The notes beneath the pieces were generated by a model. The model was not told where the DNA came from. It made no database searches and saw nothing but the letters and a program-made list of their open reading frames with translations. Positions 2,652 through 31,203 of a stretch of 41,659 nt of DNA are shown in pieces (position 1 is the stretch's first letter; every line of letters starts with the position of its first letter). Position numbers and translations under genes: made by a program. The DNA is from a virus, in IMG/VR virus record IMGVR_UViG_3300030101_002401, positions 1 through 41,659 of that record; one strand, given 5' to 3'.

Positions 2652-3583
2652 TATCTCTTGACACCTGCTCTAAATAGATTTGTAAGATTAGAAACTGTCC
2701 TTGCACCTCTTGACCTTATCTGCTCACCAACCTCTTGTTGTCTTGCTGCCTCTTCTCTTGGTGCAAATACTTCTTCTTCTATATCAGATAAGTCTTCTGC
2801 AAGTTGTTCTGTATCAGGTTGTTCTCCTGGTTCAGGAGGTAAGTATGTTCCTTGTAAAGGATTTGTAGGGTCAAATACTAAATTACCTGAGGTAGCAGGT
2901 TTGAGTCCTTCTATCTCTGTGTTAAACATATCTAATCTCTGCTGTATCTTATTAGATATGTAGTTTCTTTCTTCTGCATTCAAAGGAGCGCCTTTTCTAC
3001 TTTTTGCTTTTGTAAGTAAATCATCAACAATGTCATCCATTTGTTCATTGTCTATTTTTGGAGATGTAGTTTTTACAGCTTTCCTTACACTGAAGTTTGT
3101 GCGTAGTACACCAAGACTTTGTAACCAATCTAATTTACCACCATTATTCATAGAAAACTCCATAAGTCTTCTTATGCCTTTTACAAATTCTTCATCTACC
3201 ATAGCACCTTGTGTTTTTGTAAGGTCAAGTAAACCAACACTTGCCATTTGATTTTTAAGTAAAACACGAACTGCAGGTTCTATATCTCTTGCCGCCTCTC
3301 CTGCTTGATATGGAAAATACACAAAGTCGTAACCTTGTGCAGTCAAGTATTGTTCTGCAGATACATCTCTTTCTGCACCATCTACTTCAACTTTATACTT
3401 ACTTTGAAATCCATCACCTAGTGGTTTTCCTGATGGGTCTAAACCTCCTAGTACATCTAAAACAAACTGTGTAGCATCATCATTTTGTACTACATCTGAT
3501 ACATTAGGGTCAATGTCAATAACATCTTGTTTATCTCCATCACCTCTAGGTATTGTATAGCCTTCTAACTCTCCATTACTCAT
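2651..3583 (-). CDS. Putative internal virion protein, 310 residues
   Basis: A soluble, acidic 310-residue protein with no signal peptide or membrane segment. The N-terminus is Asp-rich, the middle (about 150-235) is charged and helical, a Pro/Glu stretch sits near 240-275, and the tail is basic (about 285-310). It is packed between the 2,070-residue protein (8-base overlap at its start) and the lysozyme gene (shared base at its stop). That places it in a cassette of probable core or ejection proteins. No family was recognised; the structural role is inferred from position only. Confidence 0.65.
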   Translation of the reverse strand: MSNGELEGYTIPRGDGDKQDVIDIDPNVSDVVQNDDATQFVLDVLGGLDPSGKPLGDGFQSKYKVEVDGAERDVSAEQYLTAQGYDFVYFPYQAGEAARDIEPAVRVLLKNQMASVGLLDLTKTQGAMVDEEFVKGIRRLMEFSMNNGGKLDWLQSLGVLRTNFSVRKAVKTTSPKIDNEQMDDIVDDLLTKAKSRKGAPLNAEERNYISNKIQQRLDMFNTEIEGLKPATSGNLVFDPTNPLQGTYLPPEPGEQPDTEQLAEDLSDIEEEVFAPREEAARQQEVGEQIRSRGARTVSNLTNLFRAGVKR

Positions 3584-6500
3584 CTGATAAATCTCCTATT
3601 CCATACTTGGTAACTTCATTATAAAACACATCTTGGAAGACTGGAAGAAACTCAGGAGTTTCTTGTGATAGCAAAGAACCTTTTTTATACAGCAAATCAC
3701 GAACTTGTTGTGCCTCTTCTGTATTTGTTGTTCTTATCCAGTTAACAGCATCTTCTTTTATTGCAAAGTTCTTGCCTTTTTGTACACCAATAATTACTTG
3801 ATTCCTAAAGTCAAGATAATCTTTCATCTCTTTATATAAATCTAAGTTTGCAGCTCTTGGGTCTTCAATAGCCTGTTCTAATATTGGTATAACTAAATCC
3901 CAATCAAATGTTCTTGGTATCTCTTTTCCTGGAAGTTTTGTTGCTACTTCAGCAGGATTTATTTCATAAGCAAGAGGAAACATTTGTTTAAGTGTAAGTT
4001 CTAATTGTGCCATCTCTTTTTTCTGTTCTGATGCTGTATATTGTTGTGTATCCCATTTAGCTCTGTATCTTTCTTTCATTGCTCTTTCGACTATTGATGC
4101 TGCATAGGTAGCTGACCTCCAGTAAAACTCTTCTTTATTTAGTGGTGTAATGTTTCCAAGTCCTTTTTGTATTCCATAAGATGTATAATCAACATCACCA
4201 CTTCCAAGACCACCAAAGAAATAAATTATACTTCCCCCATAATCTCCATATAGTTCTTCATTGTTCATCAAGAAATCATATTCAGGTTTTGTTCTTGCCA
4301 TAGGTCCTGATTCAGATATGCTCTTACCTTTCAGTTGTAATTGTGCAGATGTAAAAGCAGAATCTATATCGTATATATCAAGACCTAGTAATCTTACAAC
4401 CTCTAATGTTGCCTCATAGTCAGCTTGTTTCTGACCCATAGTAAGTGCATAGTGTTCTCTCAGGTCTTGATAGAAACCATGTAGAATGGATAGTTCTACA
4501 AAACTATTCCAGGCTACACCTGAAGTTTCTTCTTGTGTTCCATACCACTCATTAAATGTACTGTTTTCTGCATCAATTCGATATAAAACATTTACTTTTG
4601 GAACTAATGGATTTATGTTTCTATCCCATGCTTTCAACCAATAAATATTGTCTCTAATTGTTGCAGCAGTGTCAAACAAAAACTCAGGGTCATCTGCTCT
4701 ATCAGGATGTAGTATTGCTGCTATCTGTACAGATTGTGTTGTTGCACTAAGGTATAAATCTTCATCAAGTCCTTGTAAGTCTAATTTACTTGCTATAGCG
4801 TTAAAAGCATTTTTTGCTGTAGCAGGTAATATCTCTTCAGTAAGAACTTCTCCTATGATACCTTTTAAGTCCCCATTTCCCATAGATTCAAAAGGTAATC
4901 CAAATTGAAATATTGTTCTTTCTAATAATCTTCTTGTCTTTGGATTATCCCTTGTTGCAAAACCTGTAGGTATAGCAACCACTGGACCTAATGGTGGGAA
5001 CAAGCCACCACCTGCAACTCCTAGTGCAGATATTGGAAAACTTCTTTTGATAATTATATTGCTTTCTTCAATACTTACATCATCTGTCCATGTACCTCTA
5101 CCTTCAGATTTGACATAATCTTCTAACGCAGTGCCTCCAACAGGAAGTATTAAATATTTTTCTCCGAACTTGTCTGTATAAATATAATTATTTTCAACAC
5201 CTTTTCTATATGCAAAACCAACTTGAGCAACCGCTCTAGGATTAGCTACAGACAACTGTGTCCATCTACCAAGAACTTCTCTATATGCCTCAAAGAAAGG
5301 TAATCCAACTTTATAAGCCTCTGCTACATAACCTCTTTCTAATAAGTTATATAACAAACGATTATGAAGTTCAAAAGCGTATGCAGATGCAGTTTTATTT
5401 AAATCATTGAATGTCATATTTCTTGTTGTTGTTTGTCTTATACCATCTAGGTCTAACATTGTGTGATAATCTATTTCTGTAAATTCAGAAACAATACCTG
5501 ATTTCTTTGGATTGTTTAAAACTAATTTACCTGATTTAGAATCTACCATTGCAAGAAGTCCACTTCTTTGCATAAACTCTGCTACATCATCATACTTTGT
5601 ATTACCCATCTGTAATACTTTTCTTAATTCTTTTATTGTTGGTGTAGGATTTTCTTTGATAAGAGCCTTAAAATTAGTTGCAATATCAAAAGTATTTTTA
5701 TCTGTTCCTGCATGAAATTCTTTCAAAACTTTTACAAACTGTCTATCTTGTGAAGAATCAAGCACACCATCAACTAAAACATTTCTTCTAGGTAAAGTAG
5801 AGTGATAAGTTCCAATCTTAGTATTTTCATCACCTAACCTAATACCACCTGCTGTTTCAATAGAATATGCTTTACCCTCTGCGTTTGCTAGATTTAAATC
5901 TAATTCAAGTTGTTGTTTACTTGTTGCTTGTAATACCCTTGGTGCATATTTGTTATCAGCGTTGTATGCCACAAAAGTTACCGCATCATCAGTTACTTGT
6001 AGTCTTTGTTTTACGACTTTTTTCATAACTTTTTCTATATCTTCAAAAGGTATATCAGCATCATTTAAATTTCTTTTGACAGTAGAAATTAAATTTTGTG
6101 GAAGGTTTATAACATTATCAGGGTCATAATGTGCATCAAGTATATCTTGTAATGCTTTTCTTGTACCAAATATTGCATTGCTTTCTAAGAAGTGATAGTA
6201 AGCCTGTTTAAATGTTGGTATTCTGTTAAGAGTTGCCTCAGACTGTCCAACTGCAAAAAACAAAGCATCTATAAAATTAGCATACCCATCTCTCCAACTT
6301 CTACCTGATACTTTTTTAAGACCTGGTACTGTAGAAGGTAAATCCTCTAATACCTCTAACATTATTGGTCTAATAGTTTTTTTAAGACTTTCTTTGTTAA
6401 TCTGTTTTGCTACATCAAGACTTCTTATATTTACTCTTCCTACTTGTCCTTGTGCAATCATGTCAATCAAATCAGGTTGATTTGCAGTAAAATTAGATAT

Positions 6501-9500
6501 TGTCATTTTATGATGTCTTACAAAATCGATATAATCTTGGTCTGTTTTTAATACTGGTATAACCTCTGAACCTTTATCTACACTTCTTACTGATAAAATC
6601 TTTCTATTCAATTCAGTAATCTCATCCATAAGATAAGGAGTTCTTTGAATTAAATCTACAATCTCTTCATCAGGTAGATTCTTTTTCATTGCCTGTGCAA
6701 TAACAGGCATGAATGGGTCATGTGCAAATTGTGTTACCAAAAAATCTATGTAAGATTCTACATAATCATCTTGAACATCTAATCTTGTAGCTCCTGGAAC
6801 TACCTCTTCTTCAGTTGCATATTTAAATACATCTTCATACTCACCTTTGGTTTTTCTAAATACAGATGTAAACCTTGGGTCTCTTGCATATAAATCTTGT
6901 ACTTCAGGTAAACCAAACTTAGAATTATTTTCTTTTAATGCTCCTAATCCCTTTCTAATAAAATCAGGATATTTTTCACTAAGAACTTTTCCTGAAGTTC
7001 TAAATGGTCCAGTCAAAGCAGTGTAAGGTTTAAAATCAGGATTCTGTGATTGAATTAATTTAACCATTGCAGCATTTGGGTCATTCCAAATAAGTTTTAA
7101 ATATTCCCATGGACTTCTAAATATAGATGCAAGACCTCTTGCAGACATTCGCAAAGCTCCATCTGTAGTAATCTTTAGTGGAAAAGCAACCCTGGTAATA
7201 AGTTGTAAAGGCATCCATGCTCTACTAATAAAAGTAAAAGCAAAATCTGTAGCTCTGAAAGGTATTTTTTCTGCACCATACTTAAATAATAGAGATGGGT
7301 CTTCTAATCCATCTTTAACAACTCCTTGCAGTTCTCTTCCAATAGGAGTTGATTTATCATAAAATGTACCTGGTAATCCTTCATCAAATTGTTTTCTAAC
7401 AGCATCCATACTGGTTTCAAAGTTTTTTGTTCCAAATACTTTGTTTCTCAATCTTCTTCGTAGACCTGTGTATCTTAAGATTGCTTTCATATCAGGTATG
7501 TTGATTGTCAAATCCATTGCCTGACCTGCCATTGCTAATGCGTGTTCACTAGCATATATTTTGTCTGTCTCTGACAAAAGAGTATTGTGGTATTGCGCTC
7601 TAGCAATAGGGTCTAAACCTTCTTGTAGTAATGTTCTGTCATAAAATTGTGGTGATTGTGATGGTCTGTACGCTCTACCTTTTTCACTAAAACCTCTAAC
7701 ATCATCTAATGAAGACTCCATAAGTTCTTTGATTTCATTATCAGACAAACCAAAAGTATATCTAAGTTGTAAAGCACCTTCACCTTTTACTAATCTGTCA
7801 TAAAAAACATTTTGTGCGCCTCTATAATCTTTTCTATAAATAGCATCATAAAACTCTCTTACTAATTCATCTATTTTATTTTCAGGTATTGACATCATGT
7901 AACCTGTTTTAATAAATGTATCTACTGCTCTATCTGTTTCACCAAGATATGCCCATGGTCTTGAAGGTAATCTTACATCTGTACCACCAAAAATATCTTT
8001 CATACTTGACTGTAAAGTTCTTACTGCATTCTTTGATTTTCTACCTCCACCTCTCATGTAAGTTGCTGTGTAGTTACCATCTGTCATTGCAGCATAAAGG
8101 TTATCTAAAAAGTTATCATTCAATACTTTTGCTTGTATGTGAAAATCATTAGCTTGTGTAAGATTATTACCTTTGAATCTTACATCTGAAATAAGTCCAC
8201 CAGTCAAACTATCTTTTATAATATCAAAAGTTTTTTCAGGATTATCTACAACTTCTTTTGCCATAGAAGGACTAAATCCATTTCTAGCTAAATATGTAAA
8301 AACAGGAGCATCTTTGACTACTGCTTGTTGTATTTCATTTGCCATAAGAGAAATGGTTTCATCTTTGTCTGCCCAAAAATCTACTGCTCTTCCACCTGCT
8401 TTGACATATTCATCTAAATCCTTGCCAACAGCAGTCAAAGTTTTACTTGTCTGTGCAGACCTACCACCTATACCGACACCAGGCAAAACCATTGTTGGGT
8501 CTGTAACAACCATCAGTCCAAGGTTTGACATAAAACCAATCCAAGAAAACCATCCATGTTTTGGGTCAAAGTTTAAATCTGCAATTTCTTCTGTTTCAGC
8601 AGATAACAACGCAGTAAATTTTGTTTCAAACTCATTATCTGTCATAGATGTAGATTGATAAGTTTGTACAAGATTAGCTATCTCACCTTCTGTTTTTTGT
8701 TTAATATCAAAAATTACATTGTTAAGAGGAGAATACTCTCCACCTAATGTTCCTGTAAGTGTATATCTAATTTGGTCTCCAGGAGTTGCAGGAATAGCAT
8801 ATTTCTTAAAACCTTCTCTACTTCTTTGTGCTTTTGCAAAATAATCATTTGTACCAAAAAATTGTTCTATACCTTGTTTGTTTGCAGAACCTATAAGTTG
8901 ATTGTAAGTGTCAAGGTATACATCTAATTTTTCATTCAGTGTAAGTTCTCTGTTTATTCCATCTTCTTTTATTTTTAAGTTTTCTTGATAAACACTTGGG
9001 AAGTATTCTTTTATGACATCTATATCAGTTTGTGCAAATTTAAAATCTGTTTGTGTATCTAAAAAAGTTGTTGCATCTGCAATAGCCAATGGTGCAATAT
9101 TTAAAACTTGTTCAGGTATATCCATGTTTAAATTTCTTGATGTTTCTTCTAAAACATATCTAGCACCAAATGCTTGTAAACCTTTAAGAAAAGATTGTAT
9201 TCTCCAGGTTATAGGTAGTCTATTACCTTTTGTTCCTGGGTCTCCTGCAAACTCAGAGTAATCTCTATCAAGTTCTTTACCTTGTTCAGCAGCTAATTTA
9301 TTCAATTCATCTTTAGCAGCAACTCCAAATGAGTTCATAAAAAATACTTGATAATCTTGAAATATAGAGTTAAGACCAATCAAGGCAGAATTTAAAAGTG
9401 TGCTTTTTCTTAGCTGTACATCACCAAATAATTCTGCTTGTGTATCTTGATATGCTTGTCTTCCATAAGCTCTTGCATCTTTTATCTTTTCCCAAAAACT

Positions 9501-9788
9501 TATACTTCTTTTTTTTACATCATCATCATTTCTATTAGGAACAACTGTATTTGTTTGTGTCCATAGGTTGTAATACTGTGAGCCAGTTAAACCTAATGAT
9601 GCAGCAGCTATAGGTAAATCACTTTGTTCATCAGGAGTCATAGATTGAAAACTAAGAGCAGCTCCACCAAGAGCGTCTACATCAGCATCAGATAAAGAAT
9701 TTTTAGCTGCATTAAAATTTTGTTCATCAATAGCTTTATCTTTTTGAGATTTAATCCACTCTTGACCCCAGTTTATAAAGAAAGACAT
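3576..9788 (-). CDS. Giant internal virion (ejection) protein, 2,070 residues
   Basis: The largest gene in the genome, about 16 percent of it. The product is a 2,070-residue, largely helical soluble protein beginning MSFFINWGQEWIKSQKDKAI. A few hydrophobic stretches occur, near 415-435 (WIGFMSNLGLMVVTDPTMVL) and in a Gly/Pro-rich segment near 1575-1600 (ISALGVAGGGLFPPLGPVVA); these could insert into membrane. I see no polymerase, protease or methylase motif. Podoviruses commonly encode one very long inner-core protein that leaves the capsid ahead of the DNA, and this gene's place downstream of the portal and next to a lysozyme-domain gene fits that. A packaged multi-domain effector protein is an alternative. 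It starts exactly at the stop of the preceding gene. Confidence 0.7.
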   Translation of the reverse strand: MSFFINWGQEWIKSQKDKAIDEQNFNAAKNSLSDADVDALGGAALSFQSMTPDEQSDLPIAAASLGLTGSQYYNLWTQTNTVVPNRNDDDVKKRSISFWEKIKDARAYGRQAYQDTQAELFGDVQLRKSTLLNSALIGLNSIFQDYQVFFMNSFGVAAKDELNKLAAEQGKELDRDYSEFAGDPGTKGNRLPITWRIQSFLKGLQAFGARYVLEETSRNLNMDIPEQVLNIAPLAIADATTFLDTQTDFKFAQTDIDVIKEYFPSVYQENLKIKEDGINRELTLNEKLDVYLDTYNQLIGSANKQGIEQFFGTNDYFAKAQRSREGFKKYAIPATPGDQIRYTLTGTLGGEYSPLNNVIFDIKQKTEGEIANLVQTYQSTSMTDNEFETKFTALLSAETEEIADLNFDPKHGWFSWIGFMSNLGLMVVTDPTMVLPGVGIGGRSAQTSKTLTAVGKDLDEYVKAGGRAVDFWADKDETISLMANEIQQAVVKDAPVFTYLARNGFSPSMAKEVVDNPEKTFDIIKDSLTGGLISDVRFKGNNLTQANDFHIQAKVLNDNFLDNLYAAMTDGNYTATYMRGGGRKSKNAVRTLQSSMKDIFGGTDVRLPSRPWAYLGETDRAVDTFIKTGYMMSIPENKIDELVREFYDAIYRKDYRGAQNVFYDRLVKGEGALQLRYTFGLSDNEIKELMESSLDDVRGFSEKGRAYRPSQSPQFYDRTLLQEGLDPIARAQYHNTLLSETDKIYASEHALAMAGQAMDLTINIPDMKAILRYTGLRRRLRNKVFGTKNFETSMDAVRKQFDEGLPGTFYDKSTPIGRELQGVVKDGLEDPSLLFKYGAEKIPFRATDFAFTFISRAWMPLQLITRVAFPLKITTDGALRMSARGLASIFRSPWEYLKLIWNDPNAAMVKLIQSQNPDFKPYTALTGPFRTSGKVLSEKYPDFIRKGLGALKENNSKFGLPEVQDLYARDPRFTSVFRKTKGEYEDVFKYATEEEVVPGATRLDVQDDYVESYIDFLVTQFAHDPFMPVIAQAMKKNLPDEEIVDLIQRTPYLMDEITELNRKILSVRSVDKGSEVIPVLKTDQDYIDFVRHHKMTISNFTANQPDLIDMIAQGQVGRVNIRSLDVAKQINKESLKKTIRPIMLEVLEDLPSTVPGLKKVSGRSWRDGYANFIDALFFAVGQSEATLNRIPTFKQAYYHFLESNAIFGTRKALQDILDAHYDPDNVINLPQNLISTVKRNLNDADIPFEDIEKVMKKVVKQRLQVTDDAVTFVAYNADNKYAPRVLQATSKQQLELDLNLANAEGKAYSIETAGGIRLGDENTKIGTYHSTLPRRNVLVDGVLDSSQDRQFVKVLKEFHAGTDKNTFDIATNFKALIKENPTPTIKELRKVLQMGNTKYDDVAEFMQRSGLLAMVDSKSGKLVLNNPKKSGIVSEFTEIDYHTMLDLDGIRQTTTRNMTFNDLNKTASAYAFELHNRLLYNLLERGYVAEAYKVGLPFFEAYREVLGRWTQLSVANPRAVAQVGFAYRKGVENNYIYTDKFGEKYLILPVGGTALEDYVKSEGRGTWTDDVSIEESNIIIKRSFPISALGVAGGGLFPPLGPVVAIPTGFATRDNPKTRRLLERTIFQFGLPFESMGNGDLKGIIGEVLTEEILPATAKNAFNAIASKLDLQGLDEDLYLSATTQSVQIAAILHPDRADDPEFLFDTAATIRDNIYWLKAWDRNINPLVPKVNVLYRIDAENSTFNEWYGTQEETSGVAWNSFVELSILHGFYQDLREHYALTMGQKQADYEATLEVVRLLGLDIYDIDSAFTSAQLQLKGKSISESGPMARTKPEYDFLMNNEELYGDYGGSIIYFFGGLGSGDVDYTSYGIQKGLGNITPLNKEEFYWRSATYAASIVERAMKERYRAKWDTQQYTASEQKKEMAQLELTLKQMFPLAYEINPAEVATKLPGKEIPRTFDWDLVIPILEQAIEDPRAANLDLYKEMKDYLDFRNQVIIGVQKGKNFAIKEDAVNWIRTTNTEEAQQVRDLLYKKGSLLSQETPEFLPVFQDVFYNEVTKYGIGDLSDE

Positions 9789-22878: not shown

Positions 22879-23169
22879 CTACTTACTGATTTGTTTTTTA
22901 GCGTATGTCTTTACTACTGCTAAAGCTGCACCACCACCTGCGATTGCTGCAAGTTGAACTGAGTTTGCATCAATTCCTGCCAAGGGAGCAACTACCAATG
23001 CACCAATAAATGCCTCGATAAATGTCCATAGGGTACGCTCTAACATGTCTTTTAAGTCATTACTCATCTTATAACTCCATGCCTCGTTCCAAGGAGTCCA
23101 CCCCACATCTTTCTTAAATGTGCCATCTTGGTTTCTTTTTCTATTATTTTTTTCAAATAAATCTGACAT
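22879..23169 (-). CDS. Holin, r1t-like, two membrane helices
   Basis: 96 residues: a charged 30-residue N-terminus, then membrane helices at about 47-65 (LWTFIEAFIGALVVAPLAG) and 71-89 (VQLAAIAGGGAALAVVKTYA) with a short loop and a basic end. The ERT-W-F-(Q/E)AF-----A helix and AGIDA-SV turn follow the r1t holin family. It would open the inner membrane at lysis so that a wall enzyme can reach peptidoglycan. It starts at the stop of the DUF5675 gene. Confidence 0.75.
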   Translation of the reverse strand: MSDLFEKNNRKRNQDGTFKKDVGWTPWNEAWSYKMSNDLKDMLERTLWTFIEAFIGALVVAPLAGIDANSVQLAAIAGGGAALAVVKTYAKKQISK

Positions 23170-23723
23170 TATGTAATATTCCTACCACTAAGTTTAGCAT
23201 TTAATACTTTGATTTCTCCGCTTATCTCTTGTAGTTTTTCATATACATCATTAGGTTCTTGAGGTTCTAGTTGTATTTTGCTGTACTCTATGGTTACTTC
23301 ATTACCTGCTAATAATTGTGCAGATACTTTTGGATATAGTTTTTTGTATGCGTTTGCAGAACTACCCACCATACCATTGAAGTTTACATCTAAATCTTGT
23401 TGACTATCTCCGACAATAAGGCAACCTGAAGTATGTTCATCAGTGTTTCCCTGGTGTATCAGTATGTATTCAAATCCTGGAACATCTTGAATCCACAACA
23501 TACCTCGGTGAAGTTCAGGATATTTGGCTTTGTACCTTTTATCGAATCCTCCAACTGTCCTAAGTTTTATAGGATATGTTCCTTCAGGTATGCAAGTTTC
23601 GTGCATAACTTTTACTGCTTGATACTGGTCCTCTAATGTATAACACTCAAACAACCCATCAATAAATAAAAGACCATTGGTCGCATCTTTGCCTAGCTGA
23701 GTTCTAACAACTTGTAATTTCAT
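23169..23723 (-). CDS. DUF5675-family protein, possible wall-lysis enzyme
   Basis: 184 residues. Residues about 1-105 follow the DUF5675 pattern: FIDGLFECYTLED (20-32), CIPEGTYPIKL (44-54), VPGFEYILIHQGN (81-93) and TSGCLIVG (98-105). His90 and Cys101 in IHxGN...TxGC resemble the His/Cys layout of L,D-transpeptidase-type catalytic sites, so a peptidoglycan role is plausible but unproven. The C-terminus is a helix (VYEKLQEISGEIKVLNAKLS). Its place directly before the holin makes it the best endolysin candidate of the cassette. Confidence 0.7.
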   Translation of the reverse strand: MKLQVVRTQLGKDATNGLLFIDGLFECYTLEDQYQAVKVMHETCIPEGTYPIKLRTVGGFDKRYKAKYPELHRGMLWIQDVPGFEYILIHQGNTDEHTSGCLIVGDSQQDLDVNFNGMVGSSANAYKKLYPKVSAQLLAGNEVTIEYSKIQLEPQEPNDVYEKLQEISGEIKVLNAKLSGRNIT

Positions 23724-23862: not shown

Positions 23863-24041
23863 TTTCTAAAACTTATAGTGAGTAACCAAATAGCTAATGT
23901 AATTAAGGTGGCTAATCCAGTAATCTGTCTTGCACTCCCAGTCAAAGTCAAAGTGGCAATAATCAAACCAACCAAAGTCCAACTAAGGTTAAGTGTTTCT
24001 TTTATAGCCTCCACAAACCATGACCATATTTTATTTATCAT
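23859..24041 (-). CDS. Two-helix membrane protein, second holin or antiholin candidate
   Basis: 60 residues with an amphipathic N-terminus (MINKIWSWFVEAIKETLNLS) and two probable membrane helices at about 19-34 and 40-57, ending FRK. Small size, two helices and location in the lysis cassette suggest a second holin or an antiholin. ATGA overlaps occur at both ends, coupling it to the Thr-rich gene and to the 52-residue gene. Confidence 0.6.
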   Translation of the reverse strand: MINKIWSWFVEAIKETLNLSWTLVGLIIATLTLTGSARQITGLATLITLAIWLLTISFRK

Positions 24042-25996
24042 ATTGTTTTCCTAAATACAAAAGCTGCCATAGTAGCTATTCTAGTCAAAATAACTGGCAC
24101 TACTACCTCTTGTGCTTTTTCTTTTTGGTCCTGTGTCATATCATCTCCTATGTTTGCTATGTTTATTTCTGTTAAATCTATATCTATAAATGTTTCTATT
24201 GGATTATCTAAGAATGTTTCAAACTGAACTTCTGTAACTACATCAGCTAATGTATAGTTTTCTACATCTGCATTTTCTACAGCTCTTTCAACATACTCTT
24301 CTACTGCCTCAGCAACTACCTCATCTTCTTTAACTGCCTCAGCTATAATCTCTACATCTTCAGCTTGTACTTGTAAAACTTCTGCAACAACTTCTACCTG
24401 TTCTTCTGTAAGTTCTGCTACATCTTCTATAGCCTCTTCAACTACAGCTTGTACAACTTCCTGGACTTCTTCTGTAGCCTGGTCTAAATTCTGTACACCT
24501 ATGTCATTGACTTCTTCAAGAACCTCTACAACTTCTTCGGTGTCGAGTTCTTGCACAAATACTTCGATTGCCTCTGCGACTTCCTCATCTGTTAAATCTT
24601 CCTCTATCTCTATAACTTCTTCTAGCTCTGCAACCTTTTCATCAACCATTTCTTCAGTAAGTATCTCTTCAACTTCTTCGGTAGTATCTTCCAGTGGTAA
24701 AACTTCAATGATGTTTTCATCCTCTATAACCTTTTCAATAATCTCGATATCTTCTTTAGGTTTAGATTTATCTTCTTCTATTTTAATGTCTTCTAAATCT
24801 ATTTCAATATCTTCAATTATTATAATTTGTACTTCTTCAAACTCCTCTAAAAACTCTTCTACTTCGAGGATTGTGTCATCAAATTCACGAACCTTGTCAT
24901 CAATATCTTCTTCTTCATCTTCTTGATATTTGGGTTCATCTTCATATCTATCTTCATCAACATCAGGTATATTAACATCATCAAAAAACTCTTCTCCGAG
25001 TTCTTCCATGTCAGTCTCTTCAATGATTTCAATATCATATTGTTCTAAATCTCCTCGTTCTATTTGTTCATCAGTTAATTCTACACCATAAATTTCTAAA
25101 TTCTTTTTGCGTTGATTATCTCTTTCTACTGTACCATCATCTATTTCGTGTTGTTGATACTCCGCCTCAGTGCCATCATCAAGCACAACAACAAATATTT
25201 CAGGTTCAGGTGGCGGAGGTGGAATAAAAGGTTCAGGCTCAGGTTCAGGTGGTGGAGGTAATGTTGTAGTAGTAGTTGTTGGTTGAATGTACTTGAATGA
25301 TATGTCATCAAGCAAAGACCAATCATTAATTGTAATTGTAAAACTTTCTATAAATGTTTCTAGTGTATCGTATATATTGTAAACAACATCCTCAAACATA
25401 TTTTCTATATCTGTATTGTCTTGACCCTCTAAAACATTTACTTGTGTTGTTTCATCAGTATGTGTGTATGTAACTGTGCCATCATTATTTAATGCACCAA
25501 TCCTAAAACCAACTTCGTATATATCTATTTCTAACTCCTCTTCATCTACTGTTGTAGTTTCAGGTAATGTAAATGTGTAGTCGTTACTATCGTTACCATG
25601 TTGAAAGTAATGTAGGTTCATGTGAAAGTCTGTCATACCACAGCAAGACCAGTTACCATTACTATGCTTGTCATCTATCTGTATGTTATTCTCTACCTCA
25701 TTACCTTGACTATTTAGCTCATCTTCAGGTAACTCTATATCTGTAGATTGTTCCCACTCAGGAATAGTTGTAGTAGTTGTGGTCGTTTCAGTAGTTTCTT
25801 CTTCTACCTCTTCCTCTAAAGGACCATCAAAAGTTTCTACTTCTTCGACTTCTCCTGGGATAGTAGTAGTAGTAGTATCAGGTACAGTAGTGGTAGTAGT
25901 AGTTGTAGTATTATCTGTATCATTTGCTAAAGCTGATAAAGGCACAGCGATAAGTGATAATACTAACCACCATTGCAGCAACCATGTCCGCAGCAT
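24038..25996 (-). CDS. Secreted, membrane-anchored Thr-rich acidic surface protein
   Basis: 652 residues. N-terminal signal peptide (LLQWWLVLSLIAVPLSALA, likely cut after Ala24); threonine tracts near 30-45, 70-77 and 240-246 with VPD and PPPPEPEPEP spacers; a folded Cys-containing part (about 95-235, with WSCCGMTD); a very acidic heptad-like region of Glu/Val/Ile repeats (about 300-600); and a C-terminal membrane helix with an RKTI end. Thr/Pro tracts like these are typical of actinobacterial cell-surface proteins. GGAGG lies 9 bases before ATG 25996. Sitting in the lysis cassette, it could bridge membrane and wall for lysis, or decorate the infected host surface. The function is not established. 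Confidence 0.7.
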   Translation of the reverse strand: MLRTWLLQWWLVLSLIAVPLSALANDTDNTTTTTTTTVPDTTTTTIPGEVEEVETFDGPLEEEVEEETTETTTTTTTIPEWEQSTDIELPEDELNSQGNEVENNIQIDDKHSNGNWSCCGMTDFHMNLHYFQHGNDSNDYTFTLPETTTVDEEELEIDIYEVGFRIGALNNDGTVTYTHTDETTQVNVLEGQDNTDIENMFEDVVYNIYDTLETFIESFTITINDWSLLDDISFKYIQPTTTTTTLPPPPEPEPEPFIPPPPPEPEIFVVVLDDGTEAEYQQHEIDDGTVERDNQRKKNLEIYGVELTDEQIERGDLEQYDIEIIEETDMEELGEEFFDDVNIPDVDEDRYEDEPKYQEDEEEDIDDKVREFDDTILEVEEFLEEFEEVQIIIIEDIEIDLEDIKIEEDKSKPKEDIEIIEKVIEDENIIEVLPLEDTTEEVEEILTEEMVDEKVAELEEVIEIEEDLTDEEVAEAIEVFVQELDTEEVVEVLEEVNDIGVQNLDQATEEVQEVVQAVVEEAIEDVAELTEEQVEVVAEVLQVQAEDVEIIAEAVKEDEVVAEAVEEYVERAVENADVENYTLADVVTEVQFETFLDNPIETFIDIDLTEINIANIGDDMTQDQKEKAQEVVVPVILTRIATMAAFVFRKTI

Positions 25997-26009: not shown

Positions 26010-26195
26010 CTACATTAGGGCGTTGACTAACACCACCAATGCAGACCCTGCTACAAGCCAACCGCTTAGTTCTTGTCTTGAAATTTTTGTGTTTACTTTT
26101 TCGTGAAGTAAATCTATTCTTTCGTTTGTCTTTTCTTGTGTTTCTATAATTATGTTTAGAAGTTCCTTATTGGTATAACCATTACCATTACTCAT
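26010..26195 (-). CDS. XhlA-like coiled-coil membrane protein
   Basis: I start at ATG 26195 (MSNGNGYTNKELLNIIIETQ), which overlaps the previous stop as ATGA; an ATG 15 bases upstream is the alternative. 61 residues: a coiled coil at about 10-40 followed by one membrane helix at 44-61. This matches the XhlA family of cell-surface lysis accessories that work with holins. It is part of the lysis cassette, directly before the Thr-rich protein. Confidence 0.65.
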   Translation of the reverse strand: MSNGNGYTNKELLNIIIETQEKTNERIDLLHEKVNTKISRQELSGWLVAGSALVVLVNALM

Positions 26196-26317
26196 AATAT
26201 CCAATCCCAATCTTCTTCTTGGTAGTTATCAGGTACTTTTGGCATGGCAAAATCATCTAACCACACTAAAAAGTTTTTTAAAAAATATCCTAATATAAAT
26301 CCAATTACATAATCCAT
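26192..26317 (-). CDS. 41-residue membrane micro-protein
   Basis: A 41-codon gene whose product begins MDYVIGFILGYFLKNFLVWL, one membrane helix, followed by an acidic Trp-containing tail (EEDWDWIL). Its stop overlaps the next ATG as ATGA. It may be the first lysis gene, transcribed from the -10 element at 26324. Function unknown. Confidence 0.55.
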   Translation of the reverse strand: MDYVIGFILGYFLKNFLVWLDDFAMPKVPDNYQEEDWDWIL

Positions 26318-26337: not shown

Positions 26338-26640
26338 TTACTCAGGCTTTGGATTATCAGATTTAACTTTTGCTATAGCATCTTTCCAAGTAGTTGTTCC
26401 ATTGACTGCATCCCAATATTGTTGGTCGAGTTGGTCAGGTATACTTGCGTAAGCAGCTTGTCTTGCAGAAATGTAACCATACTGTTGTTCTTTCCATTTG
26501 GAGTTACCTAAATCAACCTTTGCTTGGTCATAATCTGCATCAGAAAATTCCAACCTATCATTGTTGACTTGTTTATATAAAGGCTTTGCTGCCTCTATCT
26601 CTGCATCCGCTTGTGCTTGTAGCTCTTCTTTTGTTGCCAT
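26338..26640 (-). CDS. Tail accessory or chaperone-like protein, 100 residues
   Basis: 100 residues, helical. The C-terminal half (SARQAAYASIPDQLDQQYWD onwards, to KVKSDNPKPE) follows the Y-SI-DQLD---WD---G---W---I--VK-----P pattern of small proteins encoded after tail fibre genes, such as XkdW-like or fibre-assembly proteins in many phages. It probably helps assemble or attach the receptor-binding proteins encoded just upstream. AGGAGA precedes the ATG. Confidence 0.65.
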   Translation of the reverse strand: MATKEELQAQADAEIEAAKPLYKQVNNDRLEFSDADYDQAKVDLGNSKWKEQQYGYISARQAAYASIPDQLDQQYWDAVNGTTTWKDAIAKVKSDNPKPE

Positions 26641-26666: not shown

Positions 26667-27185
26667 TTATTTTTTTAGTCCATAAAGTTTAAAGACACCA
26701 CTAGCTATATTATCACTAGCCATTTTAAATGTAACTGCTACATGACTTTCTGCAACAGTCAAAACTCCACCACCTTGATTGCCAAACAAATTGCCATTAT
26801 CATCAATACAACTTGCCTCAATAGTATAAAATGAAAACTCAGAAGAGTTAGTTGTGTTAAATAAATACATTACACCATTACCAACTTCGCCTGTTGCAGT
26901 ACCAAGTTCTTGGTCTGTTAAATCAAACGCTGATTGATTTGTTGCACTATCATTATCAAAGGATGATGCAGTTTTATAAACTTTGTGGGCAAAGTCATAA
27001 TCGCTAGAGGTTACATCTCCACTTGAATTTTGAAACCTCATTTGAAATTTTACATTATCAGTAGCAGGAACAACATTTTCAAAAACAACTTTATAAACAT
27101 CAAATGTGGTGTTCAAAGGATTTAAGGTTACAGTTGCACTAGAACTTGCAGTAACTTCTTCTATTAAAATTAAACTACCTGCCAT
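26667..27185 (-). CDS. Tandem tail paralog C' (172 residues)
   Basis: 172 residues, all beta. It shares with its five neighbours an SSDYD/SSEYD motif near residue 60, a YLFN-----EFSFYTIE block near 110-120, a GGGVL-----A--V segment and a C-terminal G-FKLYGLKK. It is closest to the 28349-28858 protein, so it is the third member of the second A-B-C set. It is a likely receptor-binding or tail-fibre head protein, inferred from position after tail genes. Confidence 0.65.
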   Translation of the reverse strand: MAGSLILIEEVTASSSATVTLNPLNTTFDVYKVVFENVVPATDNVKFQMRFQNSSGDVTSSDYDFAHKVYKTASSFDNDSATNQSAFDLTDQELGTATGEVGNGVMYLFNTTNSSEFSFYTIEASCIDDNGNLFGNQGGGVLTVAESHVAVTFKMASDNIASGVFKLYGLKK

Positions 27186-27706
27186 TATTTAACTCCATAT
27201 ACATTTACTGTTGCACTATTAATATTTCCTGTGTCCATGTGAAAACTAACACCAGAAATACTTTCAGCAGATTTGTGAACTGCTATCCCACGAAAACCAA
27301 TACCCCCTGAACTTGCTGCAAAACCAACCGATTGACTATTTGCAAATGTAAAACTAGAACTGTCAAATGGATTATAAACCATAATTGTAATACCAACACC
27401 TGTTGCAGAACTTTGATTAAAATTTAATCTATCAAGCATTAAATCAGATGTTGTTGTTCTTGTTTCCTCAAAAGAACTATAACTAGTCATTTGTAATTCT
27501 GCCCTATCGTACTCGCTATCAGATATTACATTTCCGCCACTGTCAACCAAACGCATATTTGTATATGTATTTGAAGTTGCTTGTACTAAAGAATTTATAC
27601 TAATCATATAAACATCATATTTTGCATTAAAACAATCAGTAACAGTAAAAATACTTGCACTAGATGTCAAAGATTGTGATTTAATAAATTCTAAATTAGT
27701 AGCCAT
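27185..27706 (-). CDS. Tandem tail paralog B' (173 residues)
   Basis: 173 residues, beta-rich. It carries SDSEYDRA, then MVYNPFDSSSFTF, GGIGFRGIAV and a final VNVYGVK. The NPF--S-FTF and GG----GI-V details are shared with 28858-29376 rather than with the others, marking it as the B type. It has a one-base overlap with the next gene. Likely part of the tail tip; receptor specificity unknown. Confidence 0.65.
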   Translation of the reverse strand: MATNLEFIKSQSLTSSASIFTVTDCFNAKYDVYMISINSLVQATSNTYTNMRLVDSGGNVISDSEYDRAELQMTSYSSFEETRTTTSDLMLDRLNFNQSSATGVGITIMVYNPFDSSSFTFANSQSVGFAASSGGIGFRGIAVHKSAESISGVSFHMDTGNINSATVNVYGVK

Positions 27707-28344
27707 TAAAAACTCCTTATTCCATAAAGAGATACAACACCTGCACTAAATCCACCACCACTATGACCTATTAATTGAATTGCATTTATAGTTTCTGTAA
27801 CAGTATAAACTGAACTTCCACTTCTAAACCTACCACCAACTGCTGATTGAAAAAGAAAGTTGTAATCAGTAACAAAACTAAATTTTGTACTATCGCCTAA
27901 GTTATAAAAATAAACATACCCATTAAGACTTGCATTAGTTTCATTGTCTAAATCAGGTGCTAACATAAATCTATTTTCACTTGTACTTTTAATTTCACTA
28001 AATGTTCCATCTGTCCTACCATCTTGATTAGCATGTGTATAATTAGAACTTTCATAAGTGCTACCACCATCATTTGAAACTCTTGCTCCTAAATCCTGTG
28101 CAGTTGTTGAATTTCCATGTATGTTGTTATAAGTCATAAAATGTACATTGTAAATATTTTCTTTGATAGAAGTAAAGTTAATCGTTGTCGGTGTGCCACT
28201 AATAGTTTGAGTTTCAATTAACTCCAACTGTCCAAACTTTGTAAATTTATTTTCATTATCTAATTCAATAATTTGATTAGGTGTAAGAACACCTTTATTA
28301 CTTTTGAAGGCTTGTGTTACTGCATCTTTAGGAATATAACTCAT
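27706..28344 (-). CDS. Tandem tail paralog A' (212 residues)
   Basis: 212 residues. About 40 extra N-terminal residues (MSYIPKDAVTQAFKSNKGVL), which may anchor it to the tail, lead into QLELIETQTISGTPTTINFT, NYTHANQDGR, VYFYNLGDSTKFSF and a final VVSLYGIRSF. It matches 29373-30014 in length, N-terminal extension and motif spacing, so these are the A type. It is the first gene of the second three-gene set. Confidence 0.65.
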   Translation of the reverse strand: MSYIPKDAVTQAFKSNKGVLTPNQIIELDNENKFTKFGQLELIETQTISGTPTTINFTSIKENIYNVHFMTYNNIHGNSTTAQDLGARVSNDGGSTYESSNYTHANQDGRTDGTFSEIKSTSENRFMLAPDLDNETNASLNGYVYFYNLGDSTKFSFVTDYNFLFQSAVGGRFRSGSSVYTVTETINAIQLIGHSGGGFSAGVVSLYGIRSF

Positions 28345-28348
28345 ATCT

Positions 28349-28858
28349 CTATACTACCTTATACAATGTAAATGTACCTGTTACATAAGTACCACTACCT
28401 GAACACACAAATTGAATACCATCACAAGCCTGTGCCTCAGTTTGTACAGCTCCGCCCATGTGTCCAGAAAAACCATTTGAGCCACTCCAATAAAAAGTAT
28501 GTTCCATTGTTATAAATGAAAATTCACTGCTGTTATTGAAGTTATATAAATATAATAATCCATTTGCACTTTTTCCTGTTGAAACTAGTTGTGGTTTGAA
28601 ATCCCAAACTCCACCATTTTCAATAGCAGTAGTTGAAAAACTTGCATCTGACCTAAAAAATTCAAAAGCATTATCATATTCACTTGAACTATCAGCAGTA
28701 CCACCAACAGTTACCTTTGCACTCATTTCAATTCCAGTGCTGCTTACAGTTACATTGTTATATGCAACTAAATATACGCTATCATCATTAATACCTGTAA
28801 GAGATACAGTTGTTGGTGTTCCTGTTACTGTACTTGTTGCTACTTGAAATAATCCCAT
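28349..28858 (-). CDS. Tandem tail paralog C (169 residues)
   Basis: 169 residues, beginning MGLFQVATSTVTGTPTTVSL. It has the shared SSSEYDNA, LLYLYNFNNSSEFSFITMEH, MGGAVQTEAQACDGIQFV and GTFTLYKVV blocks, and no N-terminal extension. It is most like 26667-27185. Third gene of the first set. A capsid- or tail-fibre tip domain is inferred; no enzyme motif is visible. Confidence 0.65.
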   Translation of the reverse strand: MGLFQVATSTVTGTPTTVSLTGINDDSVYLVAYNNVTVSSTGIEMSAKVTVGGTADSSSEYDNAFEFFRSDASFSTTAIENGGVWDFKPQLVSTGKSANGLLYLYNFNNSSEFSFITMEHTFYWSGSNGFSGHMGGAVQTEAQACDGIQFVCSGSGTYVTGTFTLYKVV

Positions 28859-29376
28859 TATGTATCAACCCTTAGTCCATAAACTCTTGCATTAATTTGT
28901 GTAAGATTATTTCCACTATCGCCTAGAAGTCTTATACCTGTAACACTTGATAATTGAGTTAAAACATTGATACCTTTATAATTTAATCCACCATTACCAT
29001 TATTAAAACTTGCAGTTTGTTGTAAACCAAATGTATAACAAGAACTTTTAAATGGATTAAATATATAATGTATTGACCCCATGTGTACATTTGTATTATT
29101 AAAACCAAAAAAATCAAAACTATCGTGATTAAGTTCACTTTTTTCAAGAAAACTTTGATATGAAGTTAGAAGATGAGTTGCTATATCATATTCTGAAGAT
29201 GTAATTACAGTACCATTTGCATTTATATATCTTAATCCCAATTCTTGTGCAGAAGCAGATTCATGTGTGTTTATTTCTAATTTGTATATATCAAAATCTG
29301 AACTGAAAACATCAGTAATATCTAAAGCTGATACTGAACTTCCTGTAACATCTGCCAATAATCTTAGGTTACTCAT
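28858..29376 (-). CDS. Tandem tail paralog B (172 residues)
   Basis: 172 residues. It has TSSEYDIA, IHYIFNPFKSSCYTFG, NGGLNYKGINV and ARVYGLRVDT, paired with 27185-27706 by the NPF and GG----GI-V features. It overlaps the preceding A gene by 4 bases (ATGA) and shares one base with the C gene, so the three are made together. Middle gene of the first set. Confidence 0.65.
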   Translation of the reverse strand: MSNLRLLADVTGSSVSALDITDVFSSDFDIYKLEINTHESASAQELGLRYINANGTVITSSEYDIATHLLTSYQSFLEKSELNHDSFDFFGFNNTNVHMGSIHYIFNPFKSSCYTFGLQQTASFNNGNGGLNYKGINVLTQLSSVTGIRLLGDSGNNLTQINARVYGLRVDT

Positions 29377-30014
29377 ATCTGTTTTACTCCATAAAGCTCA
29401 AAAGTGCCATCAAAATTAAAACCTGTACTTGTTGTTATTTGCAAAGCATTTACAGCACTTGCACTAGCAAGAACACCACCACCATAAAACATAACAAAAG
29501 TTGAATTATTAATTTGTGTTGCTGTGTGATAAGTTTGAAAACTGTATTTGTTAGAGTTTCCAAGATTATATAAATAACTATAACCATTTGCATTTGCATT
29601 ATTTGTTGCGTTATCACTTGTAAAAGTTAAGAAAAATTCTGTTGCACTTGTACTTCTATTCTCTGAAAAACTACCTGCTTGTGTTCCTGATTGACTTGCA
29701 TTGTCATAACCTACTGAAATATAACTAGAACCACCATTTGTTGAAACTCGTAATCTATAATCTGTGTTGCTTGTATTAGATGTTGTATGAACACTATGAA
29801 ATTTTATAAGATGTACATCATAAACATCTTCTTTTATGTTTGTAAATTCCAAACCTGCTGAACCTGTAACAGTTTGACTTTCTATAAGTTCTAAACTACC
29901 ACCAAGATGTCCTGCTTTTTGTAATTCATAATTTTCAGAAATAGATATGACACCTTGATTTTTAACTTGTTGTTTTATCTTGGTAGAAGTATCTCCCAAA
30001 TATCCAAATGACAT
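29373..30014 (-). CDS. Tandem tail paralog A (213 residues)
   Basis: 213 residues with an N-terminal extension (MSFGYLGDTSTKIKQQVKNQ) before GGSLELIESQTVTGS. It has VGYDNASQ, YSYLYNLGNSNKYSFQT, YGGGVLASASAVNALQI and FELYGVKQI. It is the partner of 27706-28344. As the first gene of the array and the type with an extension, it is the best candidate for the tail-attached subunit, with the B and C types as partners; this is inference. Confidence 0.65.
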   Translation of the reverse strand: MSFGYLGDTSTKIKQQVKNQGVISISENYELQKAGHLGGSLELIESQTVTGSAGLEFTNIKEDVYDVHLIKFHSVHTTSNTSNTDYRLRVSTNGGSSYISVGYDNASQSGTQAGSFSENRSTSATEFFLTFTSDNATNNANANGYSYLYNLGNSNKYSFQTYHTATQINNSTFVMFYGGGVLASASAVNALQITTSTGFNFDGTFELYGVKQI

Positions 30015-30023
30015 TGGTTACTC

Positions 30024-30356
30024 CTAATCTGTTATTTCAAGATAACTTGCAAAAAATTCTATATCTGATGCTGCTGATGCTTTTACTTGTATTTTATCAG
30101 TTGCCATCAAAACTAATTTTGATGTTCCTAATACATCTAATGATGTATCTGCAGGAACTGACATTTCAAAAGCAATATAAGCATCTCCTGAAGAACCATC
30201 TACGACTCTTACATCAACTGTTGCATCATTAGTTCCATCTACATTAGTTGCTCTAAGCATTAAGACTATTGCCTCATGGTTAGCATCTAATGCAGGAATT
30301 AAATCTGCAAGAGATGTAGTTCCATCATGATATGCGTTCTTAAATACATTTGCCAT
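30024..30356 (-). CDS. Small beta-rich virion protein, 110 residues
   Basis: 110 residues, Ala/Val/Asp-rich, beginning MANVFKNAYHDGTTSLADLI and ending DIEFFASYLEITD, a single beta-sandwich by pattern. Proteins of this kind are familiar in marine phage tail regions as unknown structural proteins. It sits between a fibre-like gene and the paralog array, suggesting an adaptor or a fibre component. Confidence 0.6.
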   Translation of the reverse strand: MANVFKNAYHDGTTSLADLIPALDANHEAIVLMLRATNVDGTNDATVDVRVVDGSSGDAYIAFEMSVPADTSLDVLGTSKLVLMATDKIQVKASAASDIEFFASYLEITD

Positions 30357-30366
30357 ATTATTCCTC

Positions 30367-31203
30367 TTATCCTAGTGCTATTATTAATCCAATATCTGCA
30401 AAGCCTTGTGCTGCTATTGTTGTGTCAACAAAGTCTTTGACTGCTGCTGATGTTGGAAGTGTTGTGTCATTATCGTTTGATGAAATTCCTTCTGACTCTG
30501 TAACAAGTGTTCCTGCTTTTATATTATCTACTTCTAAATTAGAAACAGTATTATTGTCCGCATCTATTGTCTTGTTAGTTAGAGTTGCTGTTTCAGCATC
30601 AGCATAATTTTTTACTGCTGCAGAAGTTGGTAAAGTAGTATCGTTATCATTTGAAGTGATTGATTCACTTTCAGTAACAAGTGTACCTGCAGCAATTTCT
30701 GATGCAGTTACTGATACAGTAAATGTTAAATCATATGGGTCGCCATCTGTACCATTGTCTGTATCTGTCCAATCAATATCGATTCCACCACCTTCAACAA
30801 ACTTTACTTCTCTTGCTGTATAAACTCCTGATGCGACAGCAGGGTTAATTGTAACCTCTGTACCATCACCATCTTCTAATACGAAACCTTGTTGTATGGC
30901 ATCATGTGTCTCATCAAAATGTTGTTTTACTACAGCTAATCTGACCTTTGTTCCTGCAGCATGTGTTGGGTCAGTTCCATGTTTTGAATCTATATCTCTA
31001 GTTACAGTAGCTGCAGTATGGTCTGCTCCTGATGACCATAACACTACCTCTCTGTTGCTGTCATTATCAGGGTCAATTACAAAATAAGCAGGTGAATCAA
31101 CTCCTGGGTCTGCTGCTAAATTCATTGATGAACCACCACTTGCTAATTGTGCTGCAAGTGTAGTTTCAAAAGCGTTTACTAAATTAGTCTCTCTTGCTAC
31201 CAT
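30367..31203 (-). CDS. Tail fibre-like protein with internal repeat, 278 residues
   Basis: 278 residues. Two near-identical 28-residue repeats (AGTLVTESE-I-SNDNDTTLP, at 172-199 and 230-257) are separated by TLTNKTIDADNNTVSNLEVD (207-226), a phrase common in marine phage tail fibre proteins. The N-terminal part (MVARETNLVNAFETTLAAQL; REVVLWSSGADHTAATVTRD) looks like the tail-binding domain of such fibres. It probably links the tail tube to the receptor-binding paralogs downstream. Confidence 0.7.
   Translation of the reverse strand: MVARETNLVNAFETTLAAQLASGGSSMNLAADPGVDSPAYFVIDPDNDSNREVVLWSSGADHTAATVTRDIDSKHGTDPTHAAGTKVRLAVVKQHFDETHDAIQQGFVLEDGDGTEVTINPAVASGVYTAREVKFVEGGGIDIDWTDTDNGTDGDPYDLTFTVSVTASEIAAGTLVTESESITSNDNDTTLPTSAAVKNYADAETATLTNKTIDADNNTVSNLEVDNIKAGTLVTESEGISSNDNDTTLPTSAAVKDFVDTTIAAQGFADIGLIIALG

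Follow-up and report, generated by a model that had tools for sequence, protein, structure and literature searches.

Two tandem sets of three paralogous tail genes as candidate receptor-binding heads of marine phages

Results

A six-gene array made of two three-gene sets

The window analyzed here is the whole of IMG/VR virus record IMGVR_UViG_3300030101_002401 (41,659 bp), in which PHROGs recognize portal, large terminase, endolysin, and major head proteins. Downstream of tail-type genes, on the minus strand at 26667 to 30014, lie six adjacent open reading frames (ORFs) that are read in the transcription order A1-B1-C1-A2-B2-C2. The first set consists of A1 (29373 to 30014; 213 amino acids [aa]), B1 (28858 to 29376; 172 aa), whose start overlaps the stop of A1 by 4 nt, and C1 (28349 to 28858; 169 aa), which overlaps B1 by 1 nt. 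The second set consists of A2 (27706 to 28344; 212 aa), B2 (27185 to 27706; 173 aa), and C2 (26667 to 27185; 172 aa), with 1-nt overlaps between A2 and B2 and between B2 and C2. Each of the two A proteins begins with an anchor of some 40 residues (29894 to 30014 in A1 and 28225 to 28344 in A2) ahead of a variable head, which is a beta-sandwich in the model of A1; B1, likewise modeled as a variable beta-sandwich, and the B and C proteins generally are free-standing heads.

An earlier sequence-only reading of this DNA had paired the first gene with the fourth, the second with the fifth, and the third with the sixth and had proposed that a whole three-gene set was duplicated. In blastp comparisons among the six, all proteins are homologous and the proposed partners are the closest: A1 and A2 share 39% identity over 203 aa (E = 1e-34), B1 and B2 share 33% (E = 1e-25), and C1 and C2 share 32% (E = 1e-17), the remaining pairs all being weaker (best, 3e-15). 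Shuffled-sequence z-scores support the A pairing (33.7) and the B pairing (31.7). The C pairing is the least clear, the z-score of C1-A2 (25.7) exceeding that of C1-C2 (21.9), and a tree of the six sequences joined B1 with B2 (98/98) and A1 with A2 (91/91) and left C1 and C2 apart. When relatives were added and the A proteins were represented by their heads only, a B clade (100/100) and a C clade (99/94) were recovered, and a single A clade was not rejected (approximately unbiased test, P = 0.5). We dropped the clean A1 and A2 groups seen in whole-protein trees; that split owes much to the anchors, because the A1 and A2 heads intermix once these are removed. Both the whole-protein trees and the heads-only tree with relatives uphold the duplication of a whole set.

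The array is widespread and contains three or six genes

Over a hundred related loci came from scanning IMG/VR together with contigs of bacterial genomes. Once duplicates and arrays truncated at contig ends were discarded, 41 distinct arrays were left, including that of the window and one on an Actinomarina contig. Thirty-four of these read ABCABC and four read ABC (L015, L090, L115, and L134). The other three can each be read as a six-gene array in which one member is divergent, frameshifted, or interrupted: C1 of L058 is divergent and initially escaped the search, A2 is split in L069, and the A1 slot of L103 (474 to 1385) is interrupted, so that only the last A1 residues remain behind an ORF on the opposite strand. 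By eye, this ORF resembles a radical-SAM protein, and it may be a real insertion or the product of a chimeric contig. No intact array with one, two, four, or five genes was found among the 41. Because 34 distinct intact arrays, window included, have the identical order, chance is excluded, and the A-B-C-A'-B'-C' pattern is real.

The same family occurs in three cultured SAR11 phages, HTVC010P, HTVC019P, and HTVC034P, each of which has exactly three tandem members. The array, together with a downstream gene for a 100-aa protein, stands behind podovirus-like tails and also behind tails of the tape-measure type (L015 and L151). In L015 (2818 to 4423), one ABC set, its A anchor very short, lies behind a tape-measure and tail-tip module and is followed by the same 100-aa, 63-aa, and 685-aa genes. 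L151 (8001 to 11332) has the full six-gene array with siphovirus-like tail genes on a contig from an uncultured "Candidatus Actinomarina" assembly. This provides a host lead for part of the phage group, the host being taken from the assembly label alone. For the host of the window, WhiB was considered as a marker and was absent. As far as the literature was searched, this widespread arrangement is undescribed.

Constant anchors and flanks, hypervariable heads

Roughly the first 40 residues hardly vary in A1 and come in two alternative types in A2 among relatives; B and C have no such segment. The contrast between anchor and head is clearest in a near relative of the window, L042, whose capsid protein is 93% identical and whose neighboring 641-aa and 278-aa proteins are 97 to 98% identical to those of the window, while its six array proteins share only 34 to 46% identity. 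DNA identity to L042 is 94% as far as about residue 52 of A1 and falls off sharply beyond it; within the array, matches are limited to the gene junctions, and flank identity returns where C2 ends. Across relatives, median identity to the window is 37 to 43% in all six slots. The concentration of strain-level variation in these genes, which the sequence-only reading had named as a check, is thus supported, as the six slots diverge while flanks and capsid stay nearly identical.

Over the 34 ABCABC arrays, distances between A1 anchors track those of the flanking genes (correlations of 0.55 with the 110-aa gene and 0.45 with the 652-aa gene), and the correlation between A1 anchor and A1 head is 0.11. 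The anchor is therefore conserved like the virion backbone and unlike its own head. In tail fibers, the conserved end usually docks on the virion and the variable end contacts the host, and by analogy the A proteins fit this logic.

The three genes of a set diverge together

In the same 34 arrays, within-set distance correlations were 0.46 to 0.64 (rho; Mantel P = 0.002 each, 500 permutations) and between-set correlations were about zero, with -0.03 for the adjacent pair C1-A2; the difference between within-set and cross-set values was 0.57 (bootstrap interval, 0.32 to 0.77). Mean mutual information gave z-scores of 4.8 to 9.4 within sets and below 1.3 for cross-set pairs, except for A1-B2 (2.9) and A1-A2 (4.8), the latter presumably arising through the anchors. 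Strict pairwise co-inheritance was considered and rejected: once per-genome divergence was removed, the set-wise correlation proved to be mostly a shared degree of divergence. In two arrays, L047 (6090 to 7713) and L065 (from 9696), all three set 2 genes have diverged much further than those of set 1, which illustrates the drift of a set as a whole.

Gene junctions show the same grouping. Overlaps occur at A1/B1 in 34 of 34 arrays, at B1/C1 and at A2/B2 in 33 each, and at B2/C2 in 28, whereas the C1/A2 border between the sets overlaps in only 4. Overlaps that keep to the sets point to coupled translation within each, which is what the expression of a stoichiometric trio would look like.

Exchange of single genes between phages

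At least one slot is shared at ≥65% identity in 33 of 561 genome pairs. Mostly one slot is shared and sometimes two; the whole set is shared in two cases (L032/L010 and L074/L034), and both sets never are. The window provides several examples: its A2 shares 80 to 87% identity with the A2 proteins of L074 and L031, in which the other set 2 genes are below 52%; its B1 is 90% identical to that of L031, with the partners near background; and its B2 and C2 are 72 to 80% identical to those of L018, again with partners near background. Exchange of one gene at a time is more frequent between phages than exchange of a complete set. Homologous recombination through the conserved joints would allow such swapping of single slots.

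We also looked for dedicated variation mechanisms. A diversity-generating retroelement and an invertible, phase-variable cassette are both unlikely because there is no reverse transcriptase (no RVT_1 match in the record) and no convincing inverted repeat (imperfect ones only, 73 to 84% identical and at most 32 nt long); the array also has no long near-identical repeat and hence no template repeat of the retroelement type.

The heads resemble tail-fiber domains

A1 and B1 were folded as single chains with AlphaFold2, using alignments of about 110 relatives. The B1 model is an all-beta sandwich with a predicted local distance difference test (pLDDT) score of 90.5; in the A1 model, the beta-sandwich head is mostly above 90, and residues 1 to 36, which contain one short helix, have low confidence. 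By sequence homology, C would be expected to have the same fold. The homology of all six proteins, with these two confident models, supports one fold family for A, B, and C, as the sequence-only reading required.

Among the predicted viral models of BFVD, B1 has many matches with template modeling (TM) scores of 0.7 to 0.9, including tail fiber, Stf-repeat (side-tail-fiber repeat), collagen triple helix repeat, and fibronectin type III proteins. The head domain also forms the C-terminal part of longer proteins, namely HTVC034P gp39 (residues 180 to 357) and a 338-aa protein of podovirus ct7QV12 (MW202713; residues 167 to 338). Because of these fold matches and C-terminal fusions, we regard A, B, and C as free-standing versions of a tail-fiber-type head domain. 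Collagen-type fibers are trimers, which suggests that the heads are trimeric as well. Membership in the galectins or in carbohydrate-binding modules was rejected, the best TM score being about 0.4 and A1 having no match at E < 0.001.

Sequence searches against Pfam and PDB gave no function for the array proteins. C2 matches best, over its full length, the unnamed family phrog_14820 (E = 3e-16), and it also matches the pelagiphage trio proteins. A tblastn search of a phage collection with four of the six proteins found no match beyond pelagiphages and one uncultured podovirus.

Neighboring genes

Immediately upstream of the array, on the same strand, is a gene for a 110-aa protein (30024 to 30356) that is 84 to 100% identical in the nearest relatives. 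It is preceded by the 278-aa gene (30367 to 31203, minus strand), which contains a 105-nt direct repeat (30412 to 30516 and 30586 to 30690, 70% identical) encoding TSAAVK-type repeats; a tail-fiber shaft or adaptor is a plausible role for its product. Immediately downstream is the 100-aa gene (26338 to 26640, minus strand), which adjoins the array in podovirus- and siphovirus-like contigs. A small membrane-type protein (26010 to 26210), by eye reminiscent of holin-like families, and a DUF5675 protein (23169 to 23723) belong to a neighborhood that accompanies the array in relatives. The 652-aa protein (24038 to 25996), with threonine runs and long glutamate-rich stretches, is found downstream of the array in both podovirus- and siphovirus-like contigs. 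Farther away, a 2,070-aa protein without a Pfam match (3576 to 9788) is possibly an internal virion or ejection protein. Promoter and terminator scans gave signals at the level of shuffled sequence, and no seventh copy was detected among the other window genes tested.

Discussion

The explanation that accounts best for the array, and one that we rate as fairly probable, is that the six genes encode two heterotrimeric receptor-binding heads, one per A+B+C set, each hung on its A protein. Receptor binding itself is very likely to be the function, and it is supported by where the array lies, namely after genes for tail fibers or tail tips both in pelagiphages and in siphovirus-like contigs. A, B, and C would be paralogous beta-sandwich domains of the type found at the ends of trimeric tail fibers, and each set would assemble, as the likelier of the arrangements open to it, into a 1:1:1 heterotrimer. 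A alone would tie the head to the tail through its N-terminal anchor, and B and C may join through their conserved ends, leaving the remainder of each protein to vary. Duplication of an ancestral set would then have given one virion two heads that are anchored separately and differ in their binding surfaces, and the conserved anchors and gene junctions would let homologous recombination swap individual slots between phages, so that the six slots may be reassorted combinatorially.

The heterotrimer gains support from the restriction to three or six genes, the set-wise codivergence, the within-set overlaps, and the presence of an anchor on A only. To this extent the hetero-oligomeric head suggested by the sequence-only reading holds up, and the physical complex is something that we infer. 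The same reading proposed that two alternative sets might broaden or switch host range; our data do not favor switching. Simultaneous use of both heads, to which we give even chances, is likelier because dozens of genomes have the two sets next to each other and undamaged and because no invertible element or reverse transcriptase was found for the window.

Several observations weigh against heterotrimeric heads. Single genes are swapped while their partners stay about 30 to 55% identical, and a demanding interface would resist such swaps unless the interface residues were conserved. After removal of per-genome divergence, the pair-specific correlation is weak (0.06 to 0.21), and the cross-set pair B1-B2 reaches 0.14. 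Conserved anchors could make the sets recombination units without any contact between the proteins. Each pelagiphage trio protein begins with an extension of its own, about 20 residues long, which sets it apart from B and C here. Finally, comparison with solved structures gave weak matches only, to galectins at best and to assorted carbohydrate-binding modules.

An alternative is three (or six) separate homotrimeric tips at different tail sites, the array then being a repertoire of independent adhesins. Free-standing heads with homologous folds, frequent single-gene exchange with unchanged partners, weak pair-specific codivergence, and the fusion of the domain to the C terminus of single fiber-type proteins such as HTVC034P gp39 are all compatible with such tips. 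We consider them unlikely, however, as they leave unexplained the fixed order and the gene number of only three or six in intact arrays, the long anchor on A only, and the codivergence of A, B, and C within sets, compared with none for the adjacent C1-A2 pair.

All six proteins might instead build one hetero-hexameric or layered head, as their adjacency in 34 of the 41 arrays would allow. This is improbable given that sets 1 and 2 diverge independently, that each has its own anchor, and that four phages of our collection and the pelagiphages manage with a single set. We give still less credence to the idea that receptor binding falls to A, with B and C as its matching assembly factors or chaperones; the A-only anchor and the overlaps within sets agree with it, but both B and C are homologs of A and equally hypervariable. 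Least probable of all is unequal crossing-over of a hypervariable exposed decoy or decoration protein that forms no fixed complex, the codivergence of sets then being due only to anchors that turn them into recombination units, for despite the conserved joints and the two whole-set exchanges it should leave arrays of four, five, seven, or more genes, of which no intact one was found, and the array adjoins tail-fiber and tail-tip genes and shows fold matches to tail-fiber proteins.

Two heterotrimeric heads of the kind we favor have partial counterparts elsewhere. Those nearest in sequence are the hypothetical proteins of the pelagiphage trio, which belong to the same family (profile E = 1e-15 to 1e-21) and, like one set here, are encoded by exactly three consecutive genes behind tail-fiber and structural genes. 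The trio genes are positionally orthologous between phages, but each phage has one set only, compared with two in the window. Because the nine trio proteins form their own clade (100/100), their three-way differentiation appears to have arisen separately or been homogenized.

The sequence-only reading knew of no described three-protein cassette of this kind, but three-gene heterotrimers have been reported. In mycobacteriophage Mysterious, the consecutive gp35, gp36, and gp37 form a baseplate heterotrimer docked on the tail tip, in which gp35 (about 205 aa) is a beta-sandwich with an N-terminal arm (PMC13252515, preprint 2026), much as A is predicted to be here. That system differs in having a single set and in being described as a baseplate accessory, and paralogy of the chains is not stated there. 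In Dishui Lake virophage 2 (DSLV2), three consecutive related tail genes, comparable in their adjacency with each set here, give a 1:1:1 heterotrimer with biochemical and electron microscopy (EM) support, and the tripartite tail binds lipopolysaccharide (LPS) (PMC12724248, 2025). It differs in that the structure is a needle resembling the T4 gp37 tip rather than a beta-sandwich, that the virus is a virophage, and that no duplicated set is described (PMC12724248). Both systems are likened to the array by description; in the phage collection, the four window proteins searched by tblastn matched only pelagiphages and the one uncultured podovirus. C1q-like and lectin-like receptor-binding proteins in the metaviromic islands of pelagiphages are hypervariable, lie beside the tail fiber, and, as here, combine a conserved N terminus with great differences between strains in the same genes; they differ in being single proteins, and the portion of that report considered here mentions no three-gene set or duplication (PMC3909814). 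Searches of open-license literature for heterotrimeric tail fibers turned up nothing on a duplicated set. The doubled, reassorting form of the three-gene set thus appears to be undescribed, whereas three-gene heterotrimers themselves are already known.

How phages find and track the abundant bacteria of the ocean is largely obscure, since most of the genes involved are labeled hypothetical. The array is a widespread and testable candidate for a system in which the heads change and the virion stays constant. If the heterotrimer is true, three chains per head would multiply the surfaces available for binding, and the second head would bring a second specificity. We speculate, tentatively and at somewhat less than even confidence, that a guild of marine phages with podovirus-like and siphovirus-like tails carries two heterotrimeric heads built from six separately exchangeable chains on a constant virion backbone. 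Genes in threes, with an anchor on the first, may also serve as a rule by which receptor-binding genes can be recognized in marine viromes that lack annotation.

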